Shown here: piece after piece, positions 24,687 to 41,378 of the stretch
How positions within the stretch are numbered: position 1 is the first letter of the stretch
How the letters are laid out: every line of letters starts with the position of its first letter
Origin: Iphinoe sp. HA4291-MV1
GTDB lineage: Bacteria > Cyanobacteriota > Cyanobacteriia > Cyanobacteriales > Nostocaceae
Assembly: GCA_019359415.1 (NCBI GenBank)
Contig: JAHHHH010000043.1
Span: 1-59,914, forward strand
Length of the DNA stretch: 59,914 nucleotides
Reading direction: 5' to 3'
Translations under genes and position numbers: made by a program
Notes under the pieces: generated by a model
What the model was told of the DNA's origin: nothing
Databases searched by the model: none
The model's input: the letters and a program-made list of their open reading frames with translations, nothing else

Positions 24687-25652
24687 ATGCCAACTTATAC
24701 AGGAATTTCTGGCGAAGCCTTCAGGCATCCTCTAGATCGCCAAGCAGAACAAGCCTTACGCAATTTACCAGGATTTGATTTTATCGCTCGTAAATTTGTG
24801 GAATTTTTCGTAGAACGCCCCCAGTTAATCTATTTAATGGGCAACACCATCCAAGTCGGACCACGCCAATATTCCACTATTTACCAAATGTTTCGCCAAT
24901 GTGTGCGGGATTTGGATATTTACCCAGAACCTGCACTCTTTGTTGAGCAAAATCCCCTAGCAAATAGCTATGCGTTGGGGCAAGAGCATCCTTATATAGT
25001 CATTAACACAGGAATATTGGACTTGCTAAGCGAAGCCGAAATTAGGGCGGTGTTAGCCCATGAGTTGGGGCATATTAAATGTGGTCATACTATTTTAATT
25101 CAAATGGCGATATGGGCGATGAGTGCTGCTTCTGCTATAGGGGAGTTGACCTTGGGTATAGGTAATTTTGTCACTCAAGGTTTAATTTACGCCTTCTATG
25201 AGTGGCGGCGCAAAGCTGAGTTATCAGCAGATCGCGCCGCGTTGTTAGTGATGGATGACTTGAACCCTGTCATGACTTCTATGATGAAAGTCTCTGGAGG
25301 CAGTATCAATTATGCTAACGAATGTAGTTTGCAAGAGTTTATCCGTCAGTCAGAAGATTACCAAGCACTCGATGCAGATGGACTGAATCAAATATACAAG
25401 TTCTTGGTTTACAACGGCGCTCGTGGCACAATGCTCAGCCATCCTTTCGCCGTAGAACGGATACACTACCTGCGTCAATGGGCACAATCAGAAGAATATC
25501 AGCAAATTAAGAGAGGAAATTATCAGCGAGCAACTGCTGCGGGTGCAGTCAACGTAGAAGCACAAACCGCCCAAAATGAAGATGTAGAAGTTTTGCGCCG
25601 ACAAATTGAGGAATTGCAAAGGGAAATTGATCGCATGAAAAGGTCTGAGTAG
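24687..25652 (+). CDS. M48 family metallopeptidase
   Basis: A 321-residue zinc protease of family M48. The zinc site is HELGH at residues 125-129 within IRAVLAHELGHIKCGH, with the third ligand Glu178 in WRRKAELSADRAAL. Two hydrophobic stretches follow the active site (MAIWAMSAASAIGELTLGIG), typical of the family and possibly membrane-associated. The C-terminus is an acidic/basic coiled coil (EVLRRQIEELQREIDRMK). The likely task is protein quality control at the membrane; the substrate is unknown. The ATG at 24687 is preceded by about 170 bp of TTGTTGG-rich repeats that separate it from the divergent helicase-like gene. Confidence 0.9.
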   Translation: MPTYTGISGEAFRHPLDRQAEQALRNLPGFDFIARKFVEFFVERPQLIYLMGNTIQVGPRQYSTIYQMFRQCVRDLDIYPEPALFVEQNPLANSYALGQEHPYIVINTGILDLLSEAEIRAVLAHELGHIKCGHTILIQMAIWAMSAASAIGELTLGIGNFVTQGLIYAFYEWRRKAELSADRAALLVMDDLNPVMTSMMKVSGGSINYANECSLQEFIRQSEDYQALDADGLNQIYKFLVYNGARGTMLSHPFAVERIHYLRQWAQSEEYQQIKRGNYQRATAAGAVNVEAQTAQNEDVEVLRRQIEELQREIDRMKRSE

Positions 25653-25961: not shown

Positions 25962-26579
25962 ATGACGCAAGCTTTACCAAAAATAGTTACCTTTGACGAA
26001 TTCATTGCTTGGTATCCTGAAAACTCTGGGGTACGCTACGAACTGCATAATGGGGAAATTATCGAGATGGCACAGCCTACCGGAAAACATGAGAGGATAA
26101 AAGGATTTTCAGCTGCTGAATTAACTTTAGAGTTTAGACGATTAAATCTCCCCTACTTTATCCCTAATCAAGCAATAGTAAAACCACCCGAAAGAGAATC
26201 AGGTTATTTCCCAGATGTATTAATACTAAATGACACTGCTTTAGCTGATGAACCTCTGTGGGAAAAATCATCTACTGTAACTAAGGGTACATCAATTCCT
26301 TTAGTTATTGAGGTTGTCAGCGCCAATTGGCGTGATGATTATTATCTAAAACTTGCTGACTATGAACAGATGGGCATTCCCGAATATTGGATTATTGACT
26401 ATGCTGCATTGGGAGCTAGGAAATTTATCGGCAATCCCAAACAACCCACAATCTCAGTCTATCAACTCATTGATGGTGAATACCAAGTTACTCAGTTTCG
26501 GGGGAACGATAAAATTCTCTCTCCTACTTTCCTTGAGTTAGAGTTGACTGTGGAACAAATTTTTAACGCTGGTCAATAA
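25962..26579 (+). CDS. Uma2 family nuclease (DUF820)
   Basis: A 205-residue protein of the Uma2 / DUF820 family, a PD-(D/E)XK restriction-like fold greatly expanded in cyanobacteria. Visible: TFDEFIAWYPENSGVRYELHNGEIIEM at the N-terminus, the acidic strands SGYFPDVLILN and PLVIEVVS with the following lysine in DDYYLKLADYEQMGIPEYW, and EYWIIDY. A nuclease role is inferred from the fold; biological targets are not known for the family. Single gene with an ATG start; no toxin or methylase partner is nearby. Confidence 0.9.
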   Translation: MTQALPKIVTFDEFIAWYPENSGVRYELHNGEIIEMAQPTGKHERIKGFSAAELTLEFRRLNLPYFIPNQAIVKPPERESGYFPDVLILNDTALADEPLWEKSSTVTKGTSIPLVIEVVSANWRDDYYLKLADYEQMGIPEYWIIDYAALGARKFIGNPKQPTISVYQLIDGEYQVTQFRGNDKILSPTFLELELTVEQIFNAGQ

Positions 26580-26905
26580 ATATTGACAGGTGAGCGATCG
26601 CATAATTTGATTTTCCAAACTCTGATTTTTCCGTTGTTCATTTTCATTAATTTAAAGCTATTGAGAATGAAGTTAGGGAAAAAACTACGCTGTTTCGTTA
26701 TTTGAGGACTTCACGTGAAAAGTCAGACTAGATATGGAGCAAGTAGAAGTTTGTAGAAGTTTGCAGCGAGAGCCAATAATAATAAAAACTTATAATATAT
26801 CTAATGAATTTGTAAATAAAAGTCTCAGATACCCCAGCCTTTGGTCGCTATCTATAAATAGTATTGCTTGAATAATTGGAGAAAGTGTTATGCTGTTATT
26901 GTTAA

Positions 26906-26978
26906 ACTGTTATCGGTCAATAGATACAGCTGTTACGTAATTCATTAACAGCAGTATAATGATTGAACCGATAACAGT
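26906..26978. repeat. long imperfect inverted repeat
   Basis: ACTGTTATCGGT-CAAT at the left pairs with ATTGAACCGATAACAGT at the right (one bulge); an inner pair GCTGTTA/TAACAGC nests within. It lies in the spacer 26580-27040, about 60 bp past the terminator of the peptide gene at 27041. May be a tiny MITE. Confidence 0.65.
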
Positions 26979-27000
26979 AAAATGCGATTTATGATTTATC

Positions 27001-27023
27001 TCCCTCTTTTACTAAAAGAGGGA
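27001..27023 (-). terminator. stem-loop after precursor peptide A
   Basis: TCCCTCTTTT (27001-27010) and AAAAGAGGGA (27014-27023) are exact reverse complements with a 3-nt loop, 17 bp after the stop of the peptide gene. The following minus-strand bases are AT-rich but lack a clean U-run. Confidence 0.6.
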
Positions 27024-27040
27024 TAATTTAGTACGGCGAT

Positions 27041-27250
27041 TTAGTAGTAGTAGTAGTAGTTCTTCTCGCCATTAGACTCACCAAAATTGAAACCTACTGT
27101 ACCAACGTCATCGGAATTGATTTGACCGAAGTTGTTGAAGTTGTAGTAGGTGTAGTCGTAGAAGCCGCCGCCTTGTACTTGCATTTCGGCATCGCTGAGT
27201 TCAGTCAAGAAGGAATCTTGGGACAGGTCAGAGATTTTGATAGCAGACAT
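27041..27250 (-). CDS. double-glycine leader peptide A, Tyr-rich tail
   Basis: A 69-residue precursor-like peptide. Residues 1-28 form a leader with the pattern ISDxSxxxxLxELSDxEMQVQGG, ending in Gly27-Gly28, the site cut by C39 peptidases of bacteriocin exporters. The 41-residue tail is rich in Tyr, Phe, Asn and Gly (9 Tyr, 5 Phe) and ends in five Tyr encoded by repeated TAC codons. A good AGGAG ribosome-binding site (TTAGGAGTAAAAAAATG) and the upstream CTCAATATT are shared with peptide B at 28712. Downstream of the exporter genes on the same strand, it is the probable cargo of the C39 exporter at 32161. The mature activity is unknown; no known bacteriocin core is recognised. Confidence 0.85.
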   Translation of the reverse strand: MSAIKISDLSQDSFLTELSDAEMQVQGGGFYDYTYYNFNNFGQINSDDVGTVGFNFGESNGEKNYYYYY

Positions 27251-27775
27251 TTTTTTACTCCTAATATTGAGTTAACTTTGGTTGTCGGAGGATTAAACCT
27301 TTGCTTGTTTCATCCATGTTTTTATTTTTAAACAATCAACCTATAAAATCAAGCTTTTCAAATCACTTGTATAGACATAAATCAAGGTGTTATGTCTTAA
27401 GCTTCATCAAAACTTATCTTTCTGTTTAACAAAAAAATAATAAAACCAGTGCTATTTTATGAACAGAAAAGCCAAAACACCAAATAAGTTATCAAACTAG
27501 AGTTGTTAAACAGTTGGAAAGATACTCGCCAAAAGTTTATTTTTAATGCCATTGAATAGCCTGCTAATATTTTTGGCGACGTGATTGGAAAAGTCAAGGT
27601 TTCAAGGCTAAAGAGGCGACATAAGTAAAGGAGTTTTGTCTTTAGAACTGGAGTTTAGACTAAACGCAGGACAAGGAAACACAAAGCGACTGAAAATCAT
27701 GGGTAAAAAAATACGGGCGCGTCAGCCGAAACATTCCTGAGAAGAAAAAGTGGTCACTCTTTGTTGAACTGACCA

Positions 27776-28003
27776 CTTTATATAGCACAATACGGTTCAG
27801 ATAAGAAGTTGACGAGTGTTCGCGTAGCGTCTCCCTTAGGAGAAGGTAAGCAGGGGAGCAGGGGAGCACCGCTACGCTCGGGAGCAGGGGAGAAAAAGAG
27901 TTATTGGAAAATAACTCTTTCTCCCCTGCGCCTCTGCTCCTGGAGCCCCTCTGCTGTCTCAACGAATAAATGTCTTAACTGAACCGTATTGCTTTATATA
28001 GCA
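27776..28003. mobile_element. 204-bp MITE with 12-bp target duplication
   Basis: The element at 27788-27991 has ends CAATACGGTTCAG and CTGAACCGTATTG (exact 13-bp inverted repeats, with similarity extending inward: ATAAGA/TCTTAA). It is flanked immediately by perfect direct copies of CTTTATATAGCA (27776-27787 and 27992-28003), the mark of transposition. Inside are a GCGTAGCGTCTCC repeat, a GCAGGGGA tract and an inner inverted repeat (AGAAAAAGAGTTATT region). No protein is encoded. A lone end-like sequence lies at 29305-29322. Confidence 0.85.
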
Positions 28004-28028
28004 TTCCTAAATGATTCGTGAGATAAAG

Positions 28029-28057
28029 AAACCCGGTATCTGGGAGATACCGGGTTT
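28029..28057. repeat. 13-bp perfect hairpin, AAACCCGG type
   Basis: AAACCCGGTATCT (28029-28041) and AGATACCGGGTTT (28045-28057) with a GGG loop. Same CCCGG class as the hairpin after mutS2 (5103). Confidence 0.8.
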
Positions 28058-28105
28058 GGTGAGGCTCAGTATTTTCTTACAAATGATTCCGGATTGCTAT
28101 AGTCA

Positions 28106-28660
28106 ATGCTGGAATTTAGAGAAAAAATCCAGCTTGACCATGACAACTATCGAGCTTGCTTAAACAATTTCAGCAAGGTGCATACACCATTCTGGGTAAC
28201 GGCAAAGATGCCCTATTCGACTGAGACAAATTTATTTCAAACTGCCAAAACGCCCGTTATTTCTATGGAATGCGGAGTACGAATGTGCTAGCTTCGTCAA
28301 ACAGACAGCAGATATTGCCCCGATAACTTGTTCCGTTTGCGTTCAAATCGCCTACTTTCTAGTGAGCCAAAAGCTTACACAGGGATTGTGGTCGTCCTCG
28401 TATTCATGGGGAGAAATTCAAGCTCAATGATCCCGAAACCTGGTGGACACCTGACCAATTAGTAGAGGTCAAAGATCCAAAGTTGGGGTAGATACTACGC
28501 CTGCGTTTGTGGCGTCATCTCCACTTTCAATAGTCTGTTAAAAATCAGATGCATTTGATTGAAATGGAGTGTTTAAACGGAAGAGGTCGTTAAGCGCAAA
28601 AAAGAACAACCTGAGTCGGCTTGACCTTACGGTTTTTCTAGTTAGAGGTATGTAGCTTGT
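28106..28660 (+). pseudogene. decayed transposase (IS701-like)
   Basis: Frameshifted pieces of one transposase can be read: KQFQQGAYTILGNGKDALFD (about 28160-28220), NLFRLRSNRLLSSEPKAYTG (about 28328-28385), RPRIHGEKFKLNDPETWW (about 28393-28447) then TPDQLVEVKDPKLG to a stop, LRLWRHLHFQ, and KKEQPES. Stops, frameshifts and a large deletion of the catalytic middle show that it is dead. Family assignment (IS701-type cyanobacterial transposase) rests on these motifs. It sits between the two precursor peptide genes. Confidence 0.75.
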
Positions 28661-28711
28661 CAACGAGCGTGCTACTGGGTCATTTTGCTATCCGTTAGTC
28701 TAAACCCAGTA

Positions 28712-28960
28712 CTAGAAGAAGTTGGCATCTTCGGTATCGCCAATAGTAATACCATAATCGAAACCAATTACATCACCGCCAATAGCAATACCATAATTGA
28801 TACCGATTACATCAACGTTATCTGTGGAGAAATTACCGAGGTAGAAGTTGATGAAGTCGTAGTGGTAGCCGTAGCAGCCGCCTTGTACTTGCATTTCGCT
28901 ATCGCTTAGTTCATTCAACAAGGAATATCGGGACTGGTCAGAGATTTTGATAACAGACAT
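28712..28960 (-). CDS. double-glycine leader peptide B, repetitive Gly/Tyr tail
   Basis: An 82-residue precursor-like peptide, paralogue of peptide A. Leader residues 1-28 share MSxIKISDxS, LxELSDxEMQVQGG and the Gly27-Gly28 cleavage site. The 54-residue tail starts with Cys29 and contains a 13-residue tandem repeat, DVIGINYGIAIGG then DVIGFDYGITIGD (residues about 50-75), visible in DNA as two similar 39-bp units. The ribosome-binding region (TTAGGAGCAAAAAAATG) is nearly identical to that of peptide A. It lies 412 bp after the prolyl isomerase gene on the same strand. Probable substrate of the C39 exporter; activity unknown. Confidence 0.85.
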   Translation of the reverse strand: MSVIKISDQSRYSLLNELSDSEMQVQGGCYGYHYDFINFYLGNFSTDNVDVIGINYGIAIGGDVIGFDYGITIGDTEDANFF

Positions 28961-29304
28961 TTTTTTGCTCCTAAGATTGAGTTAATTTTTGTTGGCAAGA
29001 GGATGAAACAAGCAAATGTTTCATCCTGTTTTTAGTCTAAACTTCAGTTAGAAGTTAGGCAATTTAAAAAAGTAGGCGATCGGCGATCGTAGATCAACAA
29101 AATAAAGCCGCCTCTTTAACCTCTTGACTCTGTGTTCTCTGCACCTCTGTGGTTAAATAAAATACTTTTTAACCGCACCAAACACAGAGAATGCACCAGA
29201 GAAAAGAAGAGATTTCATAGTCACCTTGAAAGGGCTAGTCGTAATGGTCAATAGAGAAAAACAATTGGCAGCAATAAATTATCGCTAAGGGCTAGGGATC
29301 AAGT

Positions 29305-29322
29305 CTTATCCGAACCGTATTG
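29305..29322. repeat. solo MITE end
   Basis: CTTATCCGAACCGTATTG matches the terminal inverted repeat of the MITE at 27788-27991 except one base. The spacer 28961-29372 also has a GCGATCG-rich piece and the common ACCTCTGTGGTTAAATAAA repeat; no gene. Confidence 0.6.
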
Positions 29323-29372
29323 ACTGCGCTCCGCGCAGTGCTCTTTGGAGAAAAGTTTGTGAGCTACTAAAA

Positions 29373-30161
29373 TTATTTTACCGCTGCGAATTTCGATAGG
29401 GTTGCTTCATTTTGAGCATTGTCATTCTCAAACTGAGTCACAATTTCCAGTTTCGCAATTTGTTGCTTTAACCAAGCTGCAAATAAATCTCTCAAAATTT
29501 GAGCGCGTAGTTGCTCGTCTAATTTGGGTTGAATGATTTCTTCAACCCAAATTAGATAAGCACCTTTAGGAATGATAATTGGTTTGAGAATTTGCGGGGG
29601 TGTGGCGGCAAAAATTGCTGCTGCTACCTCTGGTCTAAAATCGGCACGCCTTTTTATTCCCTGATATCCGCCTGCACGCCGCAGTTCTGGTTCTTTGATG
29701 TATTGACGAGCGATTTCTTGGAAACTGATTTCGCCTTCTTGTAGAGCATAAAATAGTTCTAACGCCACGTCTTCATCATCCAAAATTACTTCATAAGTTA
29801 CCGCTCCGAAATAATTAAGTTTGTGTTCATAAAAAAATGGTTCAACTTTCTCAGTAAATAGATGACTTGCTAGCTTATTAGATAATACATTTATGTGTGC
29901 CAATTCTTCAAAGTCATCTACAGAAAGATGGTATTTATTCAGCCATGTCCAAGTATCTTCTGCTTTAAGAAGTCGATTTGTTAATCGTATATTATCTGCT
30001 ACCTGTTGGAGTTCTTCTGGAGCAACTTTGATGTCTACTTTGCTAGCAGTCTCAGTAATGATTTTTCGAGTTGCAATTGCTTCTACTAAAGTAGGAATTT
30101 GACACGAAATCTTAACCTGGTGAAGAATATCTTCAAGAGAAATCTTGAGGACTTGTGACAT
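29373..30161 (-). CDS. parvulin-type peptidyl-prolyl isomerase of the peptide-export cluster
   Basis: About 262 residues from the ATG at 30161. The N-terminal helical half (SQVLKISLEDILHQVKISCQ, TRKIITETASKVDI) resembles SurA/PrsA-like chaperone regions; the second half is a PpiC/parvulin domain with GEISFQEIARQYIKEPELRRAGGYQG and FAATPPQILKPIIIPKGAYLIWVEEI. No signal peptide is seen, so it may act in the cytosol, keeping precursors or the exporter competent. Such isomerases often accompany HlyD and C39 exporters in cyanobacteria. The frame extends 28 codons upstream to 30245, but those residues are not family-like. Gap to hlyD is 262 bp, same strand. Confidence 0.8.
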   Translation of the reverse strand: MSQVLKISLEDILHQVKISCQIPTLVEAIATRKIITETASKVDIKVAPEELQQVADNIRLTNRLLKAEDTWTWLNKYHLSVDDFEELAHINVLSNKLASHLFTEKVEPFFYEHKLNYFGAVTYEVILDDEDVALELFYALQEGEISFQEIARQYIKEPELRRAGGYQGIKRRADFRPEVAAAIFAATPPQILKPIIIPKGAYLIWVEEIIQPKLDEQLRAQILRDLFAAWLKQQIAKLEIVTQFENDNAQNEATLSKFAAVK

Positions 30162-30423
30162 GATGCAAGGACTCCGATTGCTAGAAAATAAAATTTTGAT
30201 TTGGGATTTTACACACACTCGCTCCTTACTACCTGCATCTTCCAAGGAAGCAGATAACAGGCTGTAAGGAAATTAAATTCAAGGTCATTTTTGGATTGAA
30301 ATAGACATAATTGCCCCCTATCTACAATCACAGTCTCAAAAATCCCAATTTCGCGAAATTTAACAAAATTTTACAATATGATTCCTTATTATGACTCAAT
30401 AAGCAATAAGTACGGACTAATGA

Positions 30424-32061
30424 CTAAAGCTCTAAACCGCCTTTTTGTAATTTCTTAAACGGATCTAGGATAAAATCAATGATACGACGCTGACGGACAA
30501 TCACCTCAGCGGTCGCCGTTTGACCGGGAGTTAAGGCGATACGTTTGTTACCATTTTGAATATAAGGCTGATCCAGGGTAATTTCCAACTCAAAAGTTTC
30601 GGCTTTGCCGCCGTTAGTTTCTACAACTTTGGAGTCTGGAGAAATCGAATTTACTTTTCCATGCACGACTCCATAATCTTGGAAAGGATAGGCATCAAAT
30701 TTAATTTTGACTGGCATTCCTACTTTCAAAAAACCGCTTTGTTGGCTGGGCATTTGAGCCTTAAGTACGAAGGCAGCCTGCTTAGGCGAAATTTGGGCAA
30801 TATTCTGACCTAGTTGTACGACAGCTCCTGGCTTGGTAATAGGCAACTCAAAAATCACACCGTTTATGGGCGATCGCACAACTCGTTGTCTTAGCTGAAT
30901 CTTGTAGGATATAACCTGGCTTCCAGTTTGGGCAATTTCCGATTGCACAGAGTTGATTTGTGTTTGCAGGTCTTTGAGTTGTTCCTGTGCTTTGAGTTCT
31001 GCGAGTTCACCTGTATGAATCAGGCTTTGATAATTGCGTTGCTCTTCTTGTAAGCGCAGTTCAGCTTGCTGGATTTCAGACTGAGCTTGTTGAAGACTCT
31101 TCTGATAACTACTCTGTTGCTCTTTGAGGCTAGACTCAGCTTGAGAAGTCTCAGACTGAGCTTGCGCAAGGCGTTCGTAGTTTTCTTTTGCCGACTGTTC
31201 CACTTCCTTGAAGCGGTCTTGTGTCATGACACCGTCTTCATAGGCTTTTTGATAGCGTGGGACTTTTTCTTGAGCAGCTTGCAAACGAACTTCTGCTAAC
31301 TGATATGCTGCTTTGCTAGAATCCACAGCCTGCTGCATCTGATTGACTTTAGCTAGTTTTTCCTCTTTCTGTAAGTTATAGACAGCTTTAAGAGCATCTA
31401 GATTCTGTTGCGCCTGCTGTACTTGAGACATTTTTGCCAATTGTTGAGCCTGGTTTTGTTGCTGCTGAGTCCGTAGAGAAAGCGTCAATTGATTTTTGAG
31501 TAACTCTGAGTTTTCTCGCCGATTTTGTAGCCCGTTCAGCTTTGCGAGAACTTGGTTTAGTTCAGTTCTTAAGACATCTGAGTCCAGTTCCAGCAGAACC
31601 TGACCTTGTTTAATGGTTTCACCTTCTTTGACTCTGACAGCAGTAACACTCCCACCAGTTGGACTATCTAATCTTTGGGTTGCACCTTTAGGTTCAATAC
31701 GCCCTCTGGCACTCCCTGTCTCATCAACTTTGGAGAGCATCGCCCAAGGTACAACAATCACTGCAAAGACGATTAAAAAGTACAACAAAGAACGCGTCCA
31801 AGCGCGTGGTAAGGCATCCAGCAGTTCTTCAGTACCGTAGTACCAATCATTTGCCTCTTCTGCTGTGTCTTTGTGATGACTTAACTCAGTAGATTCCTCT
31901 GCTTGGTGCGGATGGATGTCACTTTTATATTCATCTGATTCCAGTTTAGTGATACGCGTTTGCGTTCGCGTAGCGTCTCCTGAAGGAGAAGCGCCCCCTT
32001 CGGGGCTAGCGTCAAGCCTCCGGCTTATCGCAGAGGATAAATTGTGAGGTTGGTTAGGCAT
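30424..32061 (-). CDS. HlyD family membrane fusion protein
   Basis: A 545-residue periplasmic adaptor of type I / bacteriocin export. Cytosolic N-terminus, one membrane helix (residues about 90-110, SLLYFLIVFAVIVVPWAML), a lipoyl half-motif (GGSVTAVRVKEGETIKQGQVLLELD, about 136-160), a long Gln-rich coiled-coil hairpin (about 165-380), the second lipoyl half (VRSPINGVIFELPITKPGAVVQ) and beta-barrel. It should bridge the ABC exporter at 32161 to an outer-membrane channel, which is not encoded here. Residues about 14-36 (RRLDASPEGGASPSGDATR) come from a dispersed repeat module inserted in frame (about 31954-32022). Starts 99 bp after the exporter gene. Confidence 0.92.
   Translation of the reverse strand: MPNQPHNLSSAISRRLDASPEGGASPSGDATRTQTRITKLESDEYKSDIHPHQAEESTELSHHKDTAEEANDWYYGTEELLDALPRAWTRSLLYFLIVFAVIVVPWAMLSKVDETGSARGRIEPKGATQRLDSPTGGSVTAVRVKEGETIKQGQVLLELDSDVLRTELNQVLAKLNGLQNRRENSELLKNQLTLSLRTQQQQNQAQQLAKMSQVQQAQQNLDALKAVYNLQKEEKLAKVNQMQQAVDSSKAAYQLAEVRLQAAQEKVPRYQKAYEDGVMTQDRFKEVEQSAKENYERLAQAQSETSQAESSLKEQQSSYQKSLQQAQSEIQQAELRLQEEQRNYQSLIHTGELAELKAQEQLKDLQTQINSVQSEIAQTGSQVISYKIQLRQRVVRSPINGVIFELPITKPGAVVQLGQNIAQISPKQAAFVLKAQMPSQQSGFLKVGMPVKIKFDAYPFQDYGVVHGKVNSISPDSKVVETNGGKAETFELEITLDQPYIQNGNKRIALTPGQTATAEVIVRQRRIIDFILDPFKKLQKGGLEL
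31954..32022. repeat. dispersed repeat module inside hlyD N-terminus
   Basis: The plus strand here has TTCGCGTAGCGTCTCC followed by TGAAGGAGAAG, and then CCCCTTCGGGG. The same TTCGCGTAGCGTCTCC...AGGAGAAG unit is in the MITE at about 27819-27846 and, degenerate, at about 20555-20585. In hlyD it stays in frame in a non-conserved cytosolic region. Confidence 0.75.
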
Positions 32062-32160
32062 AGTTCTATTTCCGAGATAGAAAGGTGAGAAGATGAGGCG
32101 ACAAGGGAAGTCAAAAGTAAAAAAAATTAAAAATCAAACAAATTTTGACTTTTTCCCAAC

Positions 32161-35100
32161 TCAACTTGTGTGCGCTAACTGTTGCTGGTTAAGGTAGTAG
32201 TAGTGTCCTTTACTAGCAGTTAATTCGTTGTGTGTCCCGCTTTCAACTAACACGCCTCGGTCTAATACCAGGATCAAGTCAGCATTGCGTACAGTGGAAA
32301 GGCGATGAGCAATGATTAAGCTGGTGCGTCCTTGAAGAATTGTTTTCAAATTGTTCTGAATAATCTGCTCGGATTCTGCATCCAGGTGACTAGTGGCTTC
32401 ATCAAAAATTAGGAGGCGTGGATGACCTAACAGTGCACGAGCAATGGCGAGACGTTGGCGCTGTCCACCAGAGAGCATTCCACCGCCTTCACCAATTTGA
32501 GTATCGTAACCCATTGGTAGCCGTTGAATAAATTCATCTGCCCCAGCTAGACGTGCTGCTGTGATAATTTCCTCAAGGTTGGCTTCTGGGTGAGCAATGC
32601 TGATATTTTCTTGAATCGTACCGCCAAACAAAAAGGTGTCTTGGTCTACCACACCAATTTGTTGTCGCAGCGACTTTAAAGAAATGTTAGTCACGTCATG
32701 ACCGTCGATTAACACCTTTCCATCTGTTGGTGGATACAAACCCAAAATCAATTTTGACAAAGTTGTTTTCCCAGAACCGCTACGCCCCACCACTGCTACT
32801 GTTTGTTCAGCCTGGATTTCAAAGCTAAGATTTTCCAGCACATTTATATCGCTTTCTGGGTGATAGCGGAATGTCACATTCTCAAAGCGAACGTGACCAC
32901 GAAGTTTCCGTAAAGGTCTGCGGGGAGACGAGTGCAAATCTTCTTCTGGTTCTGCTTCTAGGACATCATTAATGCGTTCGGTAGAAACGATGACTTCTTG
33001 TAATTGATTCCACAGTACTGTCAACCGTTGGAAAGGCTGAATAATGTTACCTAATAACATATTGATGGCGATTAATTGCCCAATTGTGAGTTGGTTTTGA
33101 ATCACCAGCCATGCACCAAACCAGAGTAATCCTGTGGTTACCAGCGATTGAATAGTAGAACTGAAAATTTGCAGTTGGTTCTTAATAACCTGTCCGCTAA
33201 ACATTTTTCTAATCAAATTATTCAGTTGCTCCTCCCAATGCCAGCGTACCGTCTGTTCAATTGCCATTGAGCGGACAGAGCGAATTCCTGTGAGGGATTG
33301 AATGAGGTAGCTGTTTTCGCTGGCTAAAGCACCAAAAATTTCACGACTAATGCGGCGAAGCCAAGGAGTTGAAAACAGCGTTAGCAGAAAAAATGGTGGC
33401 ACAATTGCCAGCGCTATTAATGCCATTTGCCAGCTATACCAGAACATCAATCCCACATAGATAAACACTGTCAATAAATCTAGGATGATTGACAGTGCTT
33501 CACCAGTAAGAAAGCGCTGAATTTTTTGGTTTTCTTGGACGCGAGAAACAATATCGCCTACGTAACGTGATTCAAAGTAAGACAGGGGCAAGCGGAAGGT
33601 ATGTTTAATAAAACCCACCATCAGTGCTACACTAACGCGGTTTGACGTATGGTCTAGTAGATATTGCCGTAGTCCTGTCATGGCAATGCGGAACAAACTA
33701 AAAATGAGCAATCCCAAACCAACAGCGTTTAATGTTAGGGTGCTACCCTGTACAATCACTTGGTCAAACAACAACTGTGTAAACAGTGGTGTGACCAGTC
33801 CAAATATCTGAATCAGCAATGAAGTGGCGAACACTTCTAACAGCACCCGAGAGTGGGGTTTGACTAACTCATAAAATTTCCAGAAAGGTGTAGTGTCTTC
33901 TTGGGCGTCTTTGAATAGTGCTGTGGGTTGCAACAACAATGCATACCCGGTCCAACCTTCTTTGAATTGGGCAATAGTCAGATGACGCTGACCAATTGCA
34001 GGGTCGCCAACAATCACTCGCCCTTTTGTGATTTCATAGACGACGATATAGTGCTTGCCCTCCCAGTGGGCAATTGCAGGCAAAGATTGTTGTGCCAATT
34101 TGTCAACACTGGCTTTTACAGGTCGAGTCGCAAAGCCAATACTTTCTGCTGCTGCTGCTAGAGCTTTCAGACTTGCACCACTGCGGCTTGCGTTAGAAAT
34201 CTCTCGTAGTCGGTTGACGCTAAAGCGCTTACCCCAGTAGCGACCAATCATCACTAAGCAGGCTGCGCCACAGTCTGAGGCACTTTGTTGTGCATAGAAC
34301 GGGTAGCGGTGGGTCAAGCGTCCCCACGCTTGTTCTGCTCTAATCTTAGGACTGGGAAAGTACGAACGTTGTTTCTTCTTTTGCTTTTGTTCCTGTGGAA
34401 ATTCTTGCTGCGAACCTGGAAAAGGAATAACGTTTCTTGCAGGGGCTAGTCTTTCTTGTCTAGGTTTACTAGGAATAATTTCGCGGTTATCAACGGGAAC
34501 TAAGTGCTCCTCCTGTGGGGACTGCACAAATTCTGCTAATTGCTGAGTGTGTTCCAGTGCTGTTTGCCAATTGGAATTTTTGAGAATATAGACGATTGTT
34601 GGCTGTGTTACCTGCCATTTTTTGTCGATTTTATGTGTATAAATGTTGCCTACAGTCAAGGAATGACCTTCCGAATCCAGAATTTCTCCTTTTCGGAGCA
34701 GCCATAATTTACAATCTTGGAAGAGTTTTGCTGGCAGAGTGTCTATTTCCAGTTTGTGTCGCTCAAATAGGGATAAGGCTTTGAGTATCTGCTCGACTGG
34801 TACATTGCTAGTCAGTTGCCCTAGTTGCGAGTTATGACGACACAACAAAAGTAAATCCCAAAACTCTGCCCGTTCAAAGTGGCGATCGCAAATTTTGGGA
34901 TATTTGTCTATCAAAGTTTGCAATGCTTCTTGCTTGAGATAGCAAAGCTTTAAGTTTGATGAAGCTCTAGCAGCATAAGGCTGAAAGTTTTCTTCTGGAA
35001 AAAGAGTTATCTCACCGAATGATGATCCTACAGACAGAGTAGTGATTAAGTTATTCGAGCTATCCAGCAGTCTGACTTTACCTGCAAGAATAATGTATAT

Positions 35101-35262
35101 GCCTCCTCTCGCCTCTGCTGCTTGCCAAAACTGTTTTGCGACTTGTGGTTCTACTATTTCTACTGCCTTTAAACAGGTTTGCAGTTCCCCTTCTGATAGG
35201 GTTTCACCCAAGGTGTTGGTGAGATATTGACTTAGCTGTTGTTGGGAAGACACTGATGCCAT
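32161..35262 (-). CDS. peptidase-containing ABC exporter, cNMP-binding + C39 + ABC (HetC-like)
   Basis: 1033 residues. Domains: cyclic-nucleotide-binding fold (about 40-130, GKVRLLDSSN and GSSFGEITLF); spacer; peptidase C39 (about 318-445) with the full triad Cys331 (ASDCGAAC), His404 (WEGKHYIVVY) and Asp420 (VIVGDPAIG); six-helix transmembrane domain (about 455-745); nucleotide-binding domain with Walker A GRSGSGKT (826-833), LSGGQ (930-934), Walker B LLIFDEA (950-956) and IIAHRLST. It should cut double-glycine leaders and export the peptide. The layout and size match HetC of Anabaena (about 1044 residues), but it is with HlyD and isomerase genes rather than directly before hetP, so it may be a paralogue. 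34 bp downstream of the HTH gene. Confidence 0.93.
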   Translation of the reverse strand: MASVSSQQQLSQYLTNTLGETLSEGELQTCLKAVEIVEPQVAKQFWQAAEARGGIYIILAGKVRLLDSSNNLITTLSVGSSFGEITLFPEENFQPYAARASSNLKLCYLKQEALQTLIDKYPKICDRHFERAEFWDLLLLCRHNSQLGQLTSNVPVEQILKALSLFERHKLEIDTLPAKLFQDCKLWLLRKGEILDSEGHSLTVGNIYTHKIDKKWQVTQPTIVYILKNSNWQTALEHTQQLAEFVQSPQEEHLVPVDNREIIPSKPRQERLAPARNVIPFPGSQQEFPQEQKQKKKQRSYFPSPKIRAEQAWGRLTHRYPFYAQQSASDCGAACLVMIGRYWGKRFSVNRLREISNASRSGASLKALAAAAESIGFATRPVKASVDKLAQQSLPAIAHWEGKHYIVVYEITKGRVIVGDPAIGQRHLTIAQFKEGWTGYALLLQPTALFKDAQEDTTPFWKFYELVKPHSRVLLEVFATSLLIQIFGLVTPLFTQLLFDQVIVQGSTLTLNAVGLGLLIFSLFRIAMTGLRQYLLDHTSNRVSVALMVGFIKHTFRLPLSYFESRYVGDIVSRVQENQKIQRFLTGEALSIILDLLTVFIYVGLMFWYSWQMALIALAIVPPFFLLTLFSTPWLRRISREIFGALASENSYLIQSLTGIRSVRSMAIEQTVRWHWEEQLNNLIRKMFSGQVIKNQLQIFSSTIQSLVTTGLLWFGAWLVIQNQLTIGQLIAINMLLGNIIQPFQRLTVLWNQLQEVIVSTERINDVLEAEPEEDLHSSPRRPLRKLRGHVRFENVTFRYHPESDINVLENLSFEIQAEQTVAVVGRSGSGKTTLSKLILGLYPPTDGKVLIDGHDVTNISLKSLRQQIGVVDQDTFLFGGTIQENISIAHPEANLEEIITAARLAGADEFIQRLPMGYDTQIGEGGGMLSGGQRQRLAIARALLGHPRLLIFDEATSHLDAESEQIIQNNLKTILQGRTSLIIAHRLSTVRNADLILVLDRGVLVESGTHNELTASKGHYYYLNQQQLAHTS

Positions 35263-35296
35263 TCCTTGACCTCCAACTCTGATATTATTTCCTGAA

Positions 35297-35899
35297 TTAT
35301 TTACTGGTCGGAATTAGATTTATTGACCAATGGAAACTAGGCTCAAAGTTGGATTGTAAGTCACAAATCTTGATACCAGCGCCTTTGGTTGTAGCGACAG
35401 TATTCTTGTCAAAGGAGGGTTTTTGTTTTGTTGAAAGCCCCATTTGTTTGAGCAAGCGGTTGATGTGGCGATCGCTAATTTCAATACCAAATTCCTTTGC
35501 TAAATGTTTACTTAACCATTGAGCCGTCCAGTTCGTAAATCCATAACCATACTCCCGAGGGCTATGATTGACCAATTCTTTTAACCTTTCAATATATTTC
35601 TCATTCACAGTTTTCGGTCTACCGATTGGTCGCTCTTGCCATTTATGCGCCAAACCTGCCTGTGCTACAGCAATCCAGTACCGCGCCATCTCTTGAGAAC
35701 AACCTAATGTCTGACAGATTTGAGTTTGAGTTTTACCCATATCTGCTAGCAACATAATCTCTACTCTGCGACGGTACTCCGGTTGCAAGTTTGCTTGCAA
35801 ATTCTTCAACAATACCTGTCGTTGAAAAGGTGTTAAAAACTTACTGTCCGTAAAGTTATAGCTTTGAAAAGCTTGTGATTGACTGAATTGGTGTGACAT
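35297..35899 (-). CDS. transposase-type helix-turn-helix protein
   Basis: A 200-residue DNA-binding protein. The first HTH is LADMGKTQTQICQTLGCSQEMARYWIAVAQAG, and a second winged-helix region is YGYGFTNWTAQWLSKHLAKEFG with ISDRHINRLLKQMGLS. Both are the tandem HTH units found at the N-terminus of IS630-type transposases; the DDE catalytic domain is absent. The reading frame is intact and the gene lies only 34 bp upstream of the exporter on the same strand, so it looks like a domesticated regulator of the export operon rather than debris. The ATG at 35899 begins the frame. The last 30 residues (DLQSNFEPSFHWSINLIP) are unlike the family. Confidence 0.8.
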   Translation of the reverse strand: MSHQFSQSQAFQSYNFTDSKFLTPFQRQVLLKNLQANLQPEYRRRVEIMLLADMGKTQTQICQTLGCSQEMARYWIAVAQAGLAHKWQERPIGRPKTVNEKYIERLKELVNHSPREYGYGFTNWTAQWLSKHLAKEFGIEISDRHINRLLKQMGLSTKQKPSFDKNTVATTKGAGIKICDLQSNFEPSFHWSINLIPTSK

Positions 35900-38181
35900 A
35901 ACCGTTACTAGTTGTCGTCATATACAAAATGTGGGCGCATGAGTCCGTAACAACTGTAGCAATTCCTACTGTAGCAATTCTCAGCGAAAGGATTGACAGC
36001 TGTATATTTAAGTAACTGTAAAAAGTTAATGAAGTGAGTATATGATGAAGTTAATATATGATATGCGACTAAACCTAGAAGTTGATCCCCTAGAATTATG
36101 GGGTTTAGGAGAACAATTCTTGGGTTTTTTGAGTCTTTTATTTTTCTTCCTTCAGTGCTTATGGGGTTAGCCTGATGGAATAGTTTGATCAAAAAATGGT
36201 AGATACATCTGGTCATTTTCTGATTTTCCTATTAACACGCTGGATGTACACACACGCTAGCGAAGATTCTCTGAATCTTCATTAACAAATAGTCGTCAGC
36301 ATTTTTGACGAGATAAGCGAACAAGCTAGGACTTATTTCTTGACAAAAGTCATTTTTTTGTAATGGTACTACACACTATTAATTCATTAAACGAAAAGTT
36401 AAGCTTACCTGCTTTCCTTATGTACTCATAGGTGTAAGCCAAATCAACTTACGCACCATACAACAGAGCACCAAACTTTTTGACTGCAAAGAAAAAGTGG
36501 GCATAAAGAATCCTTTGTGAATCTGAAAAAGTGCGCTATTGCACTACTTTGCTCAAAGCCATTGCTACACACAACCTATTTGGAAGTGCGTAAGACCTAA
36601 AACACGGCTGCGGTGCCTTTAGTACACAACAGCGCCTTACCAACCCACGTTATGCAGTATGCACATCATTGAGTGCTCTTCCACTAGTTCTAAGTGACGT
36701 CCTTAAATCTGCTACTAAAAAATCACTGTATCCTAATCCCCATCATGATTTTGATAAAGTCCTAAGAACTTAGTGGGGACTTTGCTGAACCCTGTCGAAA
36801 GGGTTACTGGCTAACCTCAAAATATTTAAAATAGTTAACCTTGGTTTAAAAACAGCCTAAATCTGGTTTTTATAGCTGTATAACTGAAGGATATTAAGCA
36901 CAGGCAAGACTGCAATCACTAACCTGATGGTGGTTTTTTATCAGAGTATTTGGTCAAGAGTATTGGTATGAGATGTTTGAAGTTACAAAAAAAACAACTG
37001 TCATAATTAAGGTAACACAATCCTCTAGTAGAGTACTAAATTTTTTATTTATTAAAATCTCATACATCCTGTCAAGACTTTTTTTAGAAAAAAATCATTT
37101 TTTATTGACTCTTATCAAAAACTTCATATTTAATTTATCGATTGATTAAATTAAATTTTGTGTGGAAAAGTCTAGTTTTATTAAAACATTAAAACTTTAT
37201 GATAATTTGATAGATTTTTATAATAAAACTTCTTTTGGGAAAAAGTAGTAAATACTACACAAAAAGTCAGTGTGTGAAAAGTGAAAAGCGATAGTCGTCA
37301 AACTCGGCAGCAGTGCATTTATAAGTTTTTTGTGCACCTATCTAAGGTAGTAATGATTTGGAAGAAATCTTTTCCTTAATGCGGAGGTTTAGGACAACCA
37401 GGTAGAGCTTGGTTGGGGCATAGGGCAGCGCTTCGCGATTGAACAAGGAACAGCGCCCTAAAAGGCGATCGCTATTAATACACATTGTTAATCTTACATT
37501 GTAATATAAAATTCGTATCGCTGAAACAAATTCATAAACTGTATACTGAAAGTTTTCTTAAAATTGAGATATTTGATAATCTTTCAAACAAAAACTGGAA
37601 GCTGACCAATTGTTTGGGCTTCCAGTTATTTCTACATAAAATGCAAGTAAACTTGCGCAATGACAATCCTATTTTGGGAGGAGTAGGATGATAATGAAGA
37701 GAGAAGCGAAAGTAGCTCTAAGTTTTACCAGTCAAGACAACAGTTTAGTGTTGCTTTTTCATTTTCCACACTGAAAGTTATGTCAGCGTTGCTACAACCT
37801 ACTATAGAGTAGGTAGCAGCTGTCGATGTTGGATTGAGGGAAGATACCGTTCCAATTTCTCTTTGCTTAAACTTTCTGGGAAAAAGAACCACCATTAGCA
37901 ACTTTAGATCTGTTGGTTTACATGTAGGAGTGATCTACTCTAGAAACTGAGAACCACTTCAGCAACCGATTCGATATGTTTTACACTCAAAAATAATTAT
38001 TTATAATCATTGATTCTCTCCTGTAGAATGAACTTTAAGCATCAATCAATTTCCTTGATGTTATTTATAATTTATACAAAATAGGTTGTATAAATATGCC
38101 AAAGTGGCATATTTCAAATAAAAATATGACTGTCTGAATGGAAAAAAGTGCAATCTGTATGCGCATTGGCTCAAAAAAAAC
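35900..38181. other. 2.3-kb AT-rich spacer with hairpins
   Basis: No gene is supported. It has small perfect hairpins: GAAGATTC/GAATCTTC (36262-36280), AACTGGAAGC/GCTTCCAGTT (37593-37627, 15-nt loop) and CCTACT/AGTAGG (about 37798-37813). The promoter of the HTH-exporter operon should be in 35900-36240. Frames of about 70-100 codons here have no family character. Confidence 0.5.
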
Positions 38182-38810: not shown

Positions 38811-38927
38811 TCAATCGTTCTCGCCTGTTTGCAGATGTTGGATTGCTTTAAGGAAAATATCAGCGACACGGCGGTAGGGAATTACTTTGTAGTGGCTGGG
38901 AGTTTCGTAGTTGGAAAAATAGATATC
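38811..38927 (-). pseudogene. coding-looking short frame overlapping the HlyD-like end
   Basis: In a frame different from both neighbours, the minus strand reads 38 codons between a TAA and a [23 protein letters not shown] then [18 protein letters not shown]. Composition is protein-like, and the segment preceding the TAA (CRAGFQYQF) may continue it. No start codon. May be the tail of an older gene; no family is named. Confidence 0.35.
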
Positions 38928-39742
38928 TTAGAACTGGTACTGAAATCCCGCTCTACAGGTGCATTGAGATTGATTTGCACTTTTGTTGTTTGCAAGTGAG
39001 TTATTCCCATTGCCAATTGCTGAATCTGCCTTTGCTTCAGTCGTTCTGTTGGCTTTACTGCATTTGGGGCATTTTGTGGCTCGAGCTTAGCTGATGTTCC
39101 TAAGCCATCTTTGTTCTCTTTTGCTCTGACTGACACAAGAGTTTGAGCAAGCCTTCGAGTCCGAGCCATCAAATCTTTGATGTGGTTGAACTGCATTTGG
39201 TCGCCTGCTAGATGTTGCTTTTGCACTTCAACTTCTGAAACCAAAAGTTTCCTGTCTAATTCTGCAACAACCTGACCTGTTTTTAACTCTTGAGCTTCTT
39301 TGAGTGCAGTATTAACGACTTTGTTTAGATGTCGTAGCTCCAGTGGCTGAGGCTCATTTAGTGCTACAAATTTTCCTCGAATGTAACTAACCTGTTCAAT
39401 CTTTCCTGTCCACGCCCAAACAACAATGGCCGTAAAAAAAGTTATGCTCCTCAACGTGACTAGATGAGCAATGGTTAGAGGTAGCTGATCGAGTAACGCC
39501 TGTAAGGATGTAGACCAATAGCCTGTATTCCTATTTGCTCTTTGAGGCTTTGTAACCGTAGCGGTTTGTGTATTTGTAGAGGCTTCTGGTAAAGCCTCTT
39601 TTGTGAGAGTTACATGACCTCTGTAGATGAATGCTATCTCAGAAACCAAATCACAGTAGGAATTCAAATTATGAATATTGATCTCTGTATTCTGTGTTTG
39701 GCTTAAGGTTTCGACTGCATTTGACCTGATGATACTGTTCAT
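38882..39742 (-). pseudogene. truncated HlyD-like adaptor
   Basis: About 286 residues. A Thr/Gln-rich N-terminus, then QALLDQLPLTIAHLVTLRSITFFTAIVVWAW (membrane helix), SYIRGKFVALNEPQPLELRHLNKVVNTALKEAQELKTGQVVAELD (kept lipoyl half, split here by no gap), and the first coiled-coil arm. The second arm is short (ERLKQRQIQQLAMGITHLQT) and the second lipoyl half and beta-barrel are missing: the frame ends in FPTTKLPATTK. Adaptors of this type are normally 450-550 residues. It probably cannot form a channel link. It precedes hetP by a few bases to its long frame. The frame starts at a TTG (39781); the ATG at 39742 is preferred. Confidence 0.7.
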
Positions 39743-40745
39743 GAGCTGTCCTGATGATCGCAAACCTGACTTTTTATTCAAGTCTTTTTGCTGCTAAGCC
39801 GGAATGATGCTATGTCCCTATGAAATTCAGCAGCTAGTTTGTAAAAAAGCAAATTATACAGACGGACACCATGCAAGTGAGGGTTATTAAACTTGCAAGT
39901 TTTCTTTGAAAATCACCCCGTTGTTGGTGACTTATCGACTGTCACTTTTGCTTAGTACTGCCATAAGATGGAATTTACTTTCTCCATGTCATATGTCTAA
40001 CAAGAAAAAGTCTCCTTTTGGCTTTAAGTAGATGCAGTTTTATCTTTTTCAAGTTTCACTCTCTCCTAATTTAATTATTTCTCCTTGCTAAACTTCAATT
40101 CCAATTTTATACCAATAAATTAGGAGATTTTAAGTAAAAACGCATACTTTTTAGCGTGAATTTGAAAAAAATATCATTCCTATTCATTAATAGCAACATT
40201 CGTATTTATACTACTTTTTTCTGTAAATGTCATCTACTAAATTTGAAACTTTTAACTATTTTTACTAATTATGTTTCTATATTTACTTACGTATTATTGT
40301 GTTTACGTTTTGTCCCTTACTTGTTAAATTTTGAGGGGTCTCACCCCTCATGTGTCGATGATTTTTAGCTTTATTATTCCTAAAACTTTTGAGAATTTTT
40401 ACTGTTACTAAATGTTCTAACACTTTAAAAGTATATCAGCATCAGTAGTATTTAGACAATCTTTACTATAGTAAAATCGTAATAACACTTTTTACAATTA
40501 TCGGGAAATATCTTGTTGTCGTGATATCAGTTGATACCCACGTCAAGTAAGACTTTGGTTTTAATAGATGAGCACAAATCTACAATGAATTTGTCATGGT
40601 TCTTATACAAGAATCATTTACTAAACACTGTTAATTTATCGTTCAACTACATTTCTGTGGTAGAATTCCGATAATCTTAGAACTAGTATGTTCTAGTTAC
40701 AAAAAAACACTTGCTTAAAGTCATTAACAAAAGAAAAGCAGCATA
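39743..40745. other. 1-kb spacer between exporter stubs
   Basis: Very AT-rich. Holds a hairpin GAGGGGT/ACCCCTC (40332-40348). No gene or HlyD/ABC residue could be read in any frame, so the missing part of the exporter is deleted rather than merely shifted. Confidence 0.5.
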
Positions 40746-41048
40746 TTACGACTGTGTATATTTATTGAACTTGACAGTAGAAAACGTGTTTAGACTAAAA
40801 CGCTTGCCCCAGGAGCGGCTAATCATCGCTAAACACGCTGCACCACAATCTGATGAATTCTGTTGTTGAATAAAGAGATAGCGACGCCAGAATCCCGTTA
40901 TAAAAAGACGTGTATGAATTGCTTCTTGGGAAAAGTGAATATTTGCTATGGTTTCAACAGCTTTTGAACTCTTTAAGTGTGAGAAGAACTGTTGTTTACC
41001 TATAGATTTCTGTTCTTCTTGAACTTTTAACGACGAAAATATGTTCAT
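40746..41048 (-). pseudogene. N-terminal stub of a second C39 ABC exporter
   Basis: About 100 residues (111 if a TTG at 41081 is used). RYLFIQQQNSSDCGAACLAM and SRSWGKRFSLN match RYPFYAQQSASDCGAACLVM and GRYWGKRFSVN around the catalytic Cys331 of the exporter at 32161. After this the sequence diverges (TFSTVKFNKYTQS) and stops; the catalytic His and Asp, the membrane domain and the ATPase are absent. The upstream part (SHLKSSKAVETIANIHFSQEA) could be the linker that precedes C39. It is most simply the remnant of a HetC-like gene upstream of hetP. Confidence 0.75.
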
Positions 41049-41378
41049 CGTTTTATCTCTGTGTATAGATAAACTGGACAATTTTGTTTGTGTTGAAGCG
41101 AAAAGATTGAGAAGCCTTTCAAAGAAGACTTACAAAAATTTTGAATTGAAATAAATTTATTAGCCGGAAACTTGTCAGTAGTAAACATTTCTCTACATTA
41201 CTAGTTGTTCTTTGTATCTAAAGCTACTAGTATTTAGACTTTTAAACAATAACTACCACTCCTGAGTCTTCAAAACTTAAGGTTCAGGGTAAATCGACAT
41301 ATTCCACGAGCAGTCCTAAATAATACTTCTGGGGTTAGTAGCTCAAGTCCGGAAAAGAAGTGAAAAAAATATTGTATG

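Follow-up and report, generated by a model that had tools for sequence, protein, structure and literature searches.

In a survey of 145 cyanobacterial "bacteriocin" clusters, Wang, Fewer, and Sivonen (2011) assigned the long type, which combines a CAP_ED domain (cyclic nucleoside monophosphate binding, cNMP) with a SurA protein, to groups I, II, and VI, with an average of 0.35, 3.78, and 0.33 precursors per cluster, respectively (PMC3140520), and this classification scheme was repeated in a later survey. A locus of this known kind lies in Iphinoe sp. HA4291-MV1 at positions 27041–35899 of a stretch of 59,914 nucleotides (contig JAHHHH010000043.1 of assembly GCA_019359415.1, positions 1 to 59,914; the whole stretch is called the window). 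It is a "long-type" cluster with a CAP_ED-C39-ABC exporter (ABC, ATP-binding cassette), an HlyD protein, and a SurA/rotamase, and it carries two strain-specific peptides, encoded by the intact, paralogous genes pepA and pepB. To judge from their sequence, there is a good probability that both are double-glycine (GG) leader precursors, which would be cut by the C39 domain and exported by the adjacent pump, which would work together with HlyD and a TolC-like channel.

Two other cyanobacterial systems are close to this locus. In Synechococcus elongatus PCC 7942, the extracellular presence of the small GG proteins EbfG1-4 depends on the cysteine of the adjacent C39 exporter PteB; EbfG1-3 were amyloid-like in a display assay, EbfG4 was described as a surface and matrix protein, and the EbfG proteins build biofilm (PMC4997328, PMC9981879). 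The mature EbfG1-4 were reported to have no homology to other cyanobacterial proteins (PMC4997328). HetC of Nostoc PCC 7120 is a cNMP-C39-ABC protein with catalytic Cys and His, whose N-terminal part is active as a peptidase and binds guanosine tetraphosphate (ppGpp) in vitro. It is needed for heterocyst differentiation, and it was described as having no known substrate and no membrane-fusion gene nearby (PMC10986499).

The window cluster resembles groups I and II of Wang et al. (2011) in its long-type exporter with an N-terminal CAP_ED (cNMP) domain, its C39 domain, its HlyD and SurA/rotamase genes, and its neighboring short GG precursors, whose cores are very poorly conserved (PMC3140520). 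It also contains a helix-turn-helix (HTH) gene, of which no mention was noted in that survey's account of the clusters. Neither the M16 peptidase, one of the additional modification genes of group II, nor the S8 peptidase of group VI was present among the 37 window proteins scanned with Pfam, so that group I is the closest match by predicted gene content. By description, the small GG proteins adjoining a C39 exporter recall EbfG1-4 and PteB. The cNMP-C39-ABC architecture is that of HetC; unlike HetC, however, the window exporter is accompanied by HlyD, a parvulin, and two candidate cargos. Its C39 domain and aligned catalytic residues are shared with PCAT1 (4ry2) and ComA (3k8u), both of which, in contrast, lack an N-terminal cNMP part before C39. 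PCAT1 and ComA belong to Gram-positive, single-membrane systems.

The Gene Cluster and Its Exporter

A first-pass annotation of this DNA had placed an HTH protein, a cNMP-C39-ABC exporter, HlyD, a parvulin, and two short peptide genes on one strand. All six were found there, on the minus strand, as follows (domains of the exporter are given below it):

35297..35899, minus strand, HTH protein, 200 aa, with similarity to IS630-type transposases in their N-terminal part (79.7 bits against a cut-off of 100)
32161..35262, minus strand, cNMP-C39-ABC exporter (peptidase-containing ABC transporter, PCAT), 1033 aa, from Pfam domains and alignment
34900..35115, minus strand, cNMP-binding domain of the exporter, residues 50–121 (PF00027, E 4.9e-9, above cut-off)
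33922..34305, minus strand, C39 peptidase domain of the exporter, residues 320–447 (PF03412, E 6.8e-39)
30424..32061, minus strand, HlyD-type membrane-fusion protein, 545 aa (TIGR01843, type_I_hlyD, 234.9 bits, cut-off 208.65)
29373..30161, minus strand, parvulin (SurA-like rotamase, PPIC-type), 262 aa (PF13145 and PF00639 above cut-off)
28712..28960, minus strand, pepB, double-glycine precursor, 82 aa, with leader 1–28 and a 54-aa core
27041..27250, minus strand, pepA, double-glycine precursor, 69 aa, with leader 1–28, a 41-aa core, and the C-terminus NYYYYY

The Cys-His-Asp triad, which had been read as intact, was confirmed by alignment: Cys331, His404, and Asp420, together with Gln325, lined up with the C39 domains of PCAT1 and ComA at the positions that we take to be the catalytic ones in these two proteins. 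The exporter showed the PCAT architecture, in which a C39 domain with Cys-His-Asp and the oxyanion Gln is joined to an ABC membrane domain (in Pfam ABC_membrane, residues 476–743) and a nucleotide-binding domain (ABC_tran, residues 809–958), and its ATPase motifs were located as well (Walker A from 826, signature 930, Walker B 950, H-loop 983).

The parvulin coordinates are those from an inner ATG, the longest open reading frame (ORF) opening at a TTG at 30245. A hydropathy scan detected no strongly hydrophobic segment at its N-terminus, so the parvulin is probably cytoplasmic. No outer-membrane channel was seen inside the cluster, and the sole TolC-family ORF found in the genome (two OEP repeats; genome 95% complete) was on contig C121, separate from the cluster contig. 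Hence, the cluster is not fully self-contained, and the first-pass description of it as such was too strong.

pepA and pepB as Double-Glycine Precursors

The leaders of pepA and pepB were identical at 21 of 28 residues, and the ~60–70 bp upstream of both genes were alike, including the ribosome-binding AGGAG(T/C)AAAAAAATG (read from the alignment); the common leader and ribosome-binding region ascribed to the two short genes were thus upheld. A direct repeat, D1, extended over 218 nt at 77%, and the cores were still alignable, with a score reached by 3 of 2000 shuffles. Both genes encoded an N-terminal leader ending in GG, with conserved hydrophobic positions (position −4 was hydrophobic in 93% of 148 leaders), followed by a variable core. 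Three consecutive glycines are present in pepA, and a cut would be possible after Gly28 or Gly29. When a leader profile was built without the window pair, the two genes ranked first and second (E 5.3e-8 and 0.0014) among the 554 window ORFs of at least 30 aa, the next having an E of 5.4.

In the comparison of pepA and pepB with NCBIfam and Pfam, where the presence of the NHLP, N11P, HetP, and DUF37 models is unconfirmed, no model reached its cut-off; the pinensin leader model scored 14.8 bits with pepA (cut-off 24). A search for relatives of the pair in seven other genomes of the genus gave no credible match (best E 0.97), pepB had no match in the plasmid collection, and among 388 order-level genomes only that of the window itself had full-length matches at E≤1e-5. 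The cores are therefore strain-specific.

The Leader Family Beside Related Exporters

The leader motif was scanned in 33 stretches around parvulin matches from eight genomes of the genus, including the window's own, and longer leaders such as MADIKITELRPAGSELFQDSESFLNELNDQEMSVFGG were found. By comparison, the two leaders in the window seem to be shortened versions of a longer one (IKISELRPAGSELFQDSESFLNEL...GG). A 7-row leader profile gave 33 matches at E≤1e-3 in the eight genomes, 25 of which fell in the window or in the exporter stretches retrieved, together 643,317 bp of ~62.7 Mb; without the eight matches that were seeds themselves or shared the leader of one, the count was 17 of 25. A 17-row profile, searched against ORFs free of X, yielded 166 matches at E≤0.01 among 16,367 small ORFs (113 loci and the window), and the shuffled-ORF control yielded none at this threshold and one at E≤1.

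After the removal of nine duplicates and of L064, L069, and L070 (no strong exporter match), 102 distinct exporter loci were compared. Nine loci from genomes of the genus had exact 200-base words in common with named Brasilonema and Scytonema contigs, which suggests a host of the Brasilonema/Scytonema type. A leader gene was present at 49 of them, 47 of which also had the HTH gene, which lay upstream of the exporter at 62 loci altogether. HlyD was found at 97 and the parvulin at 94 of the 102, several loci ending at contig ends. The check proposed in the first-pass annotation, a search for the leader next to C39 exporters in other cyanobacteria, thus came out in its favor: the leader was conserved beside orthologous exporters elsewhere, and this conservation lends good support to the prediction that pepA and pepB encode the cargo of the exporter next to them. 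The peptide genes were on the strand opposite to the exporter in 145 of 157 cases and on the same strand in the window. At the family level, 97 of 118 genomes had a leader match at E≤0.01, some of these genomes having supplied profile rows. Within loci, 133 of 146 pairs showed a higher similarity in the leader than in the core (pairs with a leader identity below 0.6 excluded).

When 26 class members were compared with NCBIfam and Pfam, no model matched more than one member at E≤0.01. The leader string SELFQDSESF was found in no paper in PubMed Central (PMC) text, a comparison outside which stand supplements, figures, other journals, and the 150 "Other" precursors of Wang et al. (2011). A partial leader match was also noted at G000:C99:141718-141798; of the exporters found on this contig, the closest was ~31 kb away. 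Matches of a similar, partial kind occurred at G002:C81, G005:C321, and G004:C1:4954001, and from their sequence all of these possibly represent another leader subfamily.

For the association with the HTH gene, loci with less than 1 kb of upstream or 9.9 kb of downstream flank were left out, which gave 77 loci. Leader genes were found at 39 of the 46 HTH-linked exporters vs. 2 of the 31 without HTH (39/7 vs. 2/29; Fisher p 2.5e-12). On an exporter tree (quick LG+G4) the HTH gene changed only three times, and an independent-pairs sign test gave p 1. The association is therefore a clade-level property, essentially one split on the tree, and its use as independent evidence was abandoned. The HTH protein itself is probably a regulator, although this is a guess.

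The sister exporter on the tree, L056 (Shimodaira-Hasegawa-like approximate likelihood ratio test 98), was accompanied by three cores unlike those of pepA and pepB; on this sequence comparison, the pump is kept while the predicted cargo changes. In the clade without HTH, the exporters of L065, L066, and L068 had small ORFs beside them with two other types of leader, one of them MLILDLDYLDSVSEENTMHLHGG; these ORFs were alike across the three genomes and are probably the cargo of that clade. Additionally, L052, L056, and L073 had a second, divergent parvulin (24–27% identity), convergent to the first, and in L076 the exporter match was split into two overlapping pieces (residues 1–463 and 462–1031), perhaps by a frameshift.

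Composition of the Tails

The pepA core had the highest aromatic share of 147 cores (34%), and that of pepB (22%) ranked 13th among 154 precursors. The pepB core opened with Cys29 and contained two 13-aa units, DVIGINYGIAIGG and DVIGFDYGITIGD, alike at 9 of 13 residues. Two repeats contribute to these features:

28738..28814, minus strand, 39-bp tandem duplication in the pepB core (repeat family D2), 2.0 copies, 89% matches
27042..27060, minus strand, TAC trinucleotide microsatellite, 6.3 copies, encoding the Tyr5 of pepA and extending into the stop codon

Because of these, part of the odd composition of the tails is mutational repeat expansion. Both cores were acidic, with net charges of −4 and −8. 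No proline occurred in either precursor; over 147 cores the proline share was 0.013, and 53 cores had at least one.

Tyr-rich and Gly/Asn-rich cores were also found elsewhere in the class, for instance in L082, which ends in YYPYYRYYY, and in some held-out members; other class cores were quite different (hydrophobic, Cys-containing, or with NxNANT repeats). The first-pass claim that the tails look like no known lantibiotic, microcin, or cyanobactin core was sustained in part, no Pfam or NCBIfam model having reached its cut-off. As a mark of peculiarity it did not hold: cyanobacterial "bacteriocin" clusters were described as having very little core conservation (PMC3140520), so that strange tails are normal in this cluster type.

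An aromatic C-terminus was considered as a rule for the class and rejected. Of the 144 distinct cores that made up the first set, 69 ended in Y, F, or W (by majority 9 of 31 core clusters, 3.2 expected, p 0.003), whereas in the 25 held-out loci 13 of 63 cores and 4 of 26 clusters did so (3.2 clusters expected, p 0.55). A claim of positive selection on the window cores was likewise dropped, since the nonsynonymous (dN) and synonymous (dS) rates shifted with the alignment: one gave dN 0.51 and dS 0.20 (37 codons), and a second gave dN 0.59 and dS 0.67 (41 codons), with dN>dS in 197 of 496 bootstraps.

Neighboring Genes and Elements

A pair of palindromes was found in front of the peptide genes by repeat search:

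29001..29026, no strand, 26-bp palindrome GGATGAAACA-N6-TGTTTCATCC upstream of pepB
27290..27315, no strand, the counterpart upstream of pepA, a palindrome of lower perfection with a 6-bp spacer that is the reverse complement of the one at the pepB site

In the window, 0.16 matches at ≤3 mismatches were expected by chance, and two were reached in 2 of 100 shuffles. At ≤2 mismatches no third site occurred in the genome, the pattern having been derived from its own two sites, and a backward-read control was equally frequent genome-wide (2 vs. 2). A role as operator was not retained.

Between pepB and pepA, an element of ~220 bp (27779-28000) carried 28-bp inverted repeats at its ends, 86% complementary, and by its sequence looks like a miniature inverted-repeat transposable element; a related 20-bp end recurred at 29303-29322. 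At 28251-28492 a transposase remnant had been suspected, but none of three frames gave a match to a Pfam model, and the idea was discarded; Rfam at gathering scores gave nothing in 26000-36500.

Among the scanned window proteins, the only peptidase neighbor was an M48 peptidase at 24687-25652. Upstream of the cluster, on the same strand, a lone 299-aa ORF (38882-39781) had a weak likeness to HlyD-type adaptors, below cut-offs, and a 111-aa ORF (40746-41081) matched only the first 31 positions of the C39 peptidase domain (29.7 bits, above cut-off). These two ORFs are probably remnants of a second export cluster.

Discussion

The following mechanism is proposed for this locus. The pepA and pepB precursors, whose conserved leader ending in Gly-Gly is read in their sequence, would be translated; the C39 domain, as in its family, would bind the leader and cut after the double glycine. 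The ABC pump, HlyD, and a TolC-like channel encoded elsewhere would then export the tails of 41 and 54 residues, again by analogy with their families. Since neither precursor contains proline, the parvulin would hardly act on the prolines of this cargo and would rather serve as a chaperone, on the cytoplasmic side. The cNMP domain may gate the pump through a small nucleotide, by analogy with the binding of ppGpp by HetC in vitro, and the HTH protein may, at a guess, regulate the cargo or the operon. Outside the cell, the tails, rich in Tyr, Phe, Gly, and Asn and with a short repeat, would function on the cell surface or within the matrix.

This last step, work at the surface or in the matrix, is proposed tentatively, as slightly favored over antagonism. 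The first-pass suggestion of matrix-forming or signaling peptides may be taken as a fair analogy with EbfG1-4 and HetC. Several points weigh against the proposals made here. The surface or matrix role draws on composition and analogy, and the structure prediction for pepB was unusable (mean predicted local distance difference test 42). Selection on the cores is not demonstrable from one pair with an alignment-dependent dN/dS. The window leaders have 28 residues, vs. 36–39 in 11 of the 17 profile rows, and 53 of the 102 distinct exporter loci had no leader match, many stretches being cut short and other leader families existing.

Going by the name under which the cluster type was published, the tails would be bacteriocins or microcin-like antagonists of related cyanobacteria, a possibility that is rather doubtful here, even if it deserves attention. 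It would fit cores that differ among near relatives of the same exporter (L056 has three others) and the presence of full-length pepA and pepB in a single one of 388 order-level genomes. Among the 26 class members, one matched TIGR03949, a model of class IIb bacteriocins (E 1.4e-5, the best), and one Bacteriocin_IIc (E 0.0012), as E-values with unconfirmed cut-offs. The window cores, however, are acidic and match no bacteriocin model, and the literature covered contains no report of bioactivity for this cluster type. Distinctly less likely are signals between filament cells, as proposed for the substrate of HetC. The relatives carrying related loci are presumably filamentous heterocyst formers, and HetC, likewise a C39 exporter with a cNMP domain, is needed for heterocyst differentiation and binds ppGpp in vitro; yet HetC was described without a membrane-fusion gene nearby, unlike the window cluster (PMC10986499), and strain-specific tails of 41–54 residues are unlike conserved signals.

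It is quite improbable that pepA and pepB are drifting duplicates of little or no function whose odd composition is explained by repeat expansion. The TAC microsatellite and the 39-bp duplication, the inverted-repeat element between the genes, a core dN not clearly below dS, and the lack of a credible match in seven other genomes of the genus would all be expected of such duplicates, but both frames are open, the leader (21/28) and the ribosome-binding region are kept, the exporter genes are intact, and the cores are still alignable (3/2000 shuffles). Very unlikely, finally, is the case in which the adjacent exporter moves other cargo and pepA and pepB use another C39 exporter of the genome. 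At least three further loci of the genome do have an orthologous exporter, HlyD, and parvulin (C76, C99, and C133), and ~31 kb separate the partial leader match at C99:141718 from the closest exporter found on its contig; against this, leader genes lie beside 39 of the 46 evaluable HTH-linked exporters.

A wider picture may be drawn from these results, which as a whole is unlikely to be right in every part. The leader M(A/S)xIxISxL...(RPAGSELFQ)DSESFLNEL...GG would mark a hitherto undescribed class of cargo, very common in heterocystous cyanobacteria and tied to a single clade of long-type exporters, which would have a dedicated HTH regulator derived from a transposase; the pump would be a nucleotide-gated general outlet for the fast-changing tails of each strain, and the window tails would be aromatic beta-repeat peptides, rich in Gly and Asn, that assemble by themselves and belong to the sheath or cell surface.

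The two window peptides are one strain-specific example of a broader matter. The cargo of the long-type cyanobacterial C39 exporters is largely unknown, with 0.35 precursors per group I cluster in the survey of Wang et al. (PMC3140520) and no substrate reported for HetC. The leader profile finds candidate cargo at 39 of 46 evaluable HTH-linked exporters and matches 97 of 118 family-level genomes, and the question of what this pump secretes is thereby open to proteomics.

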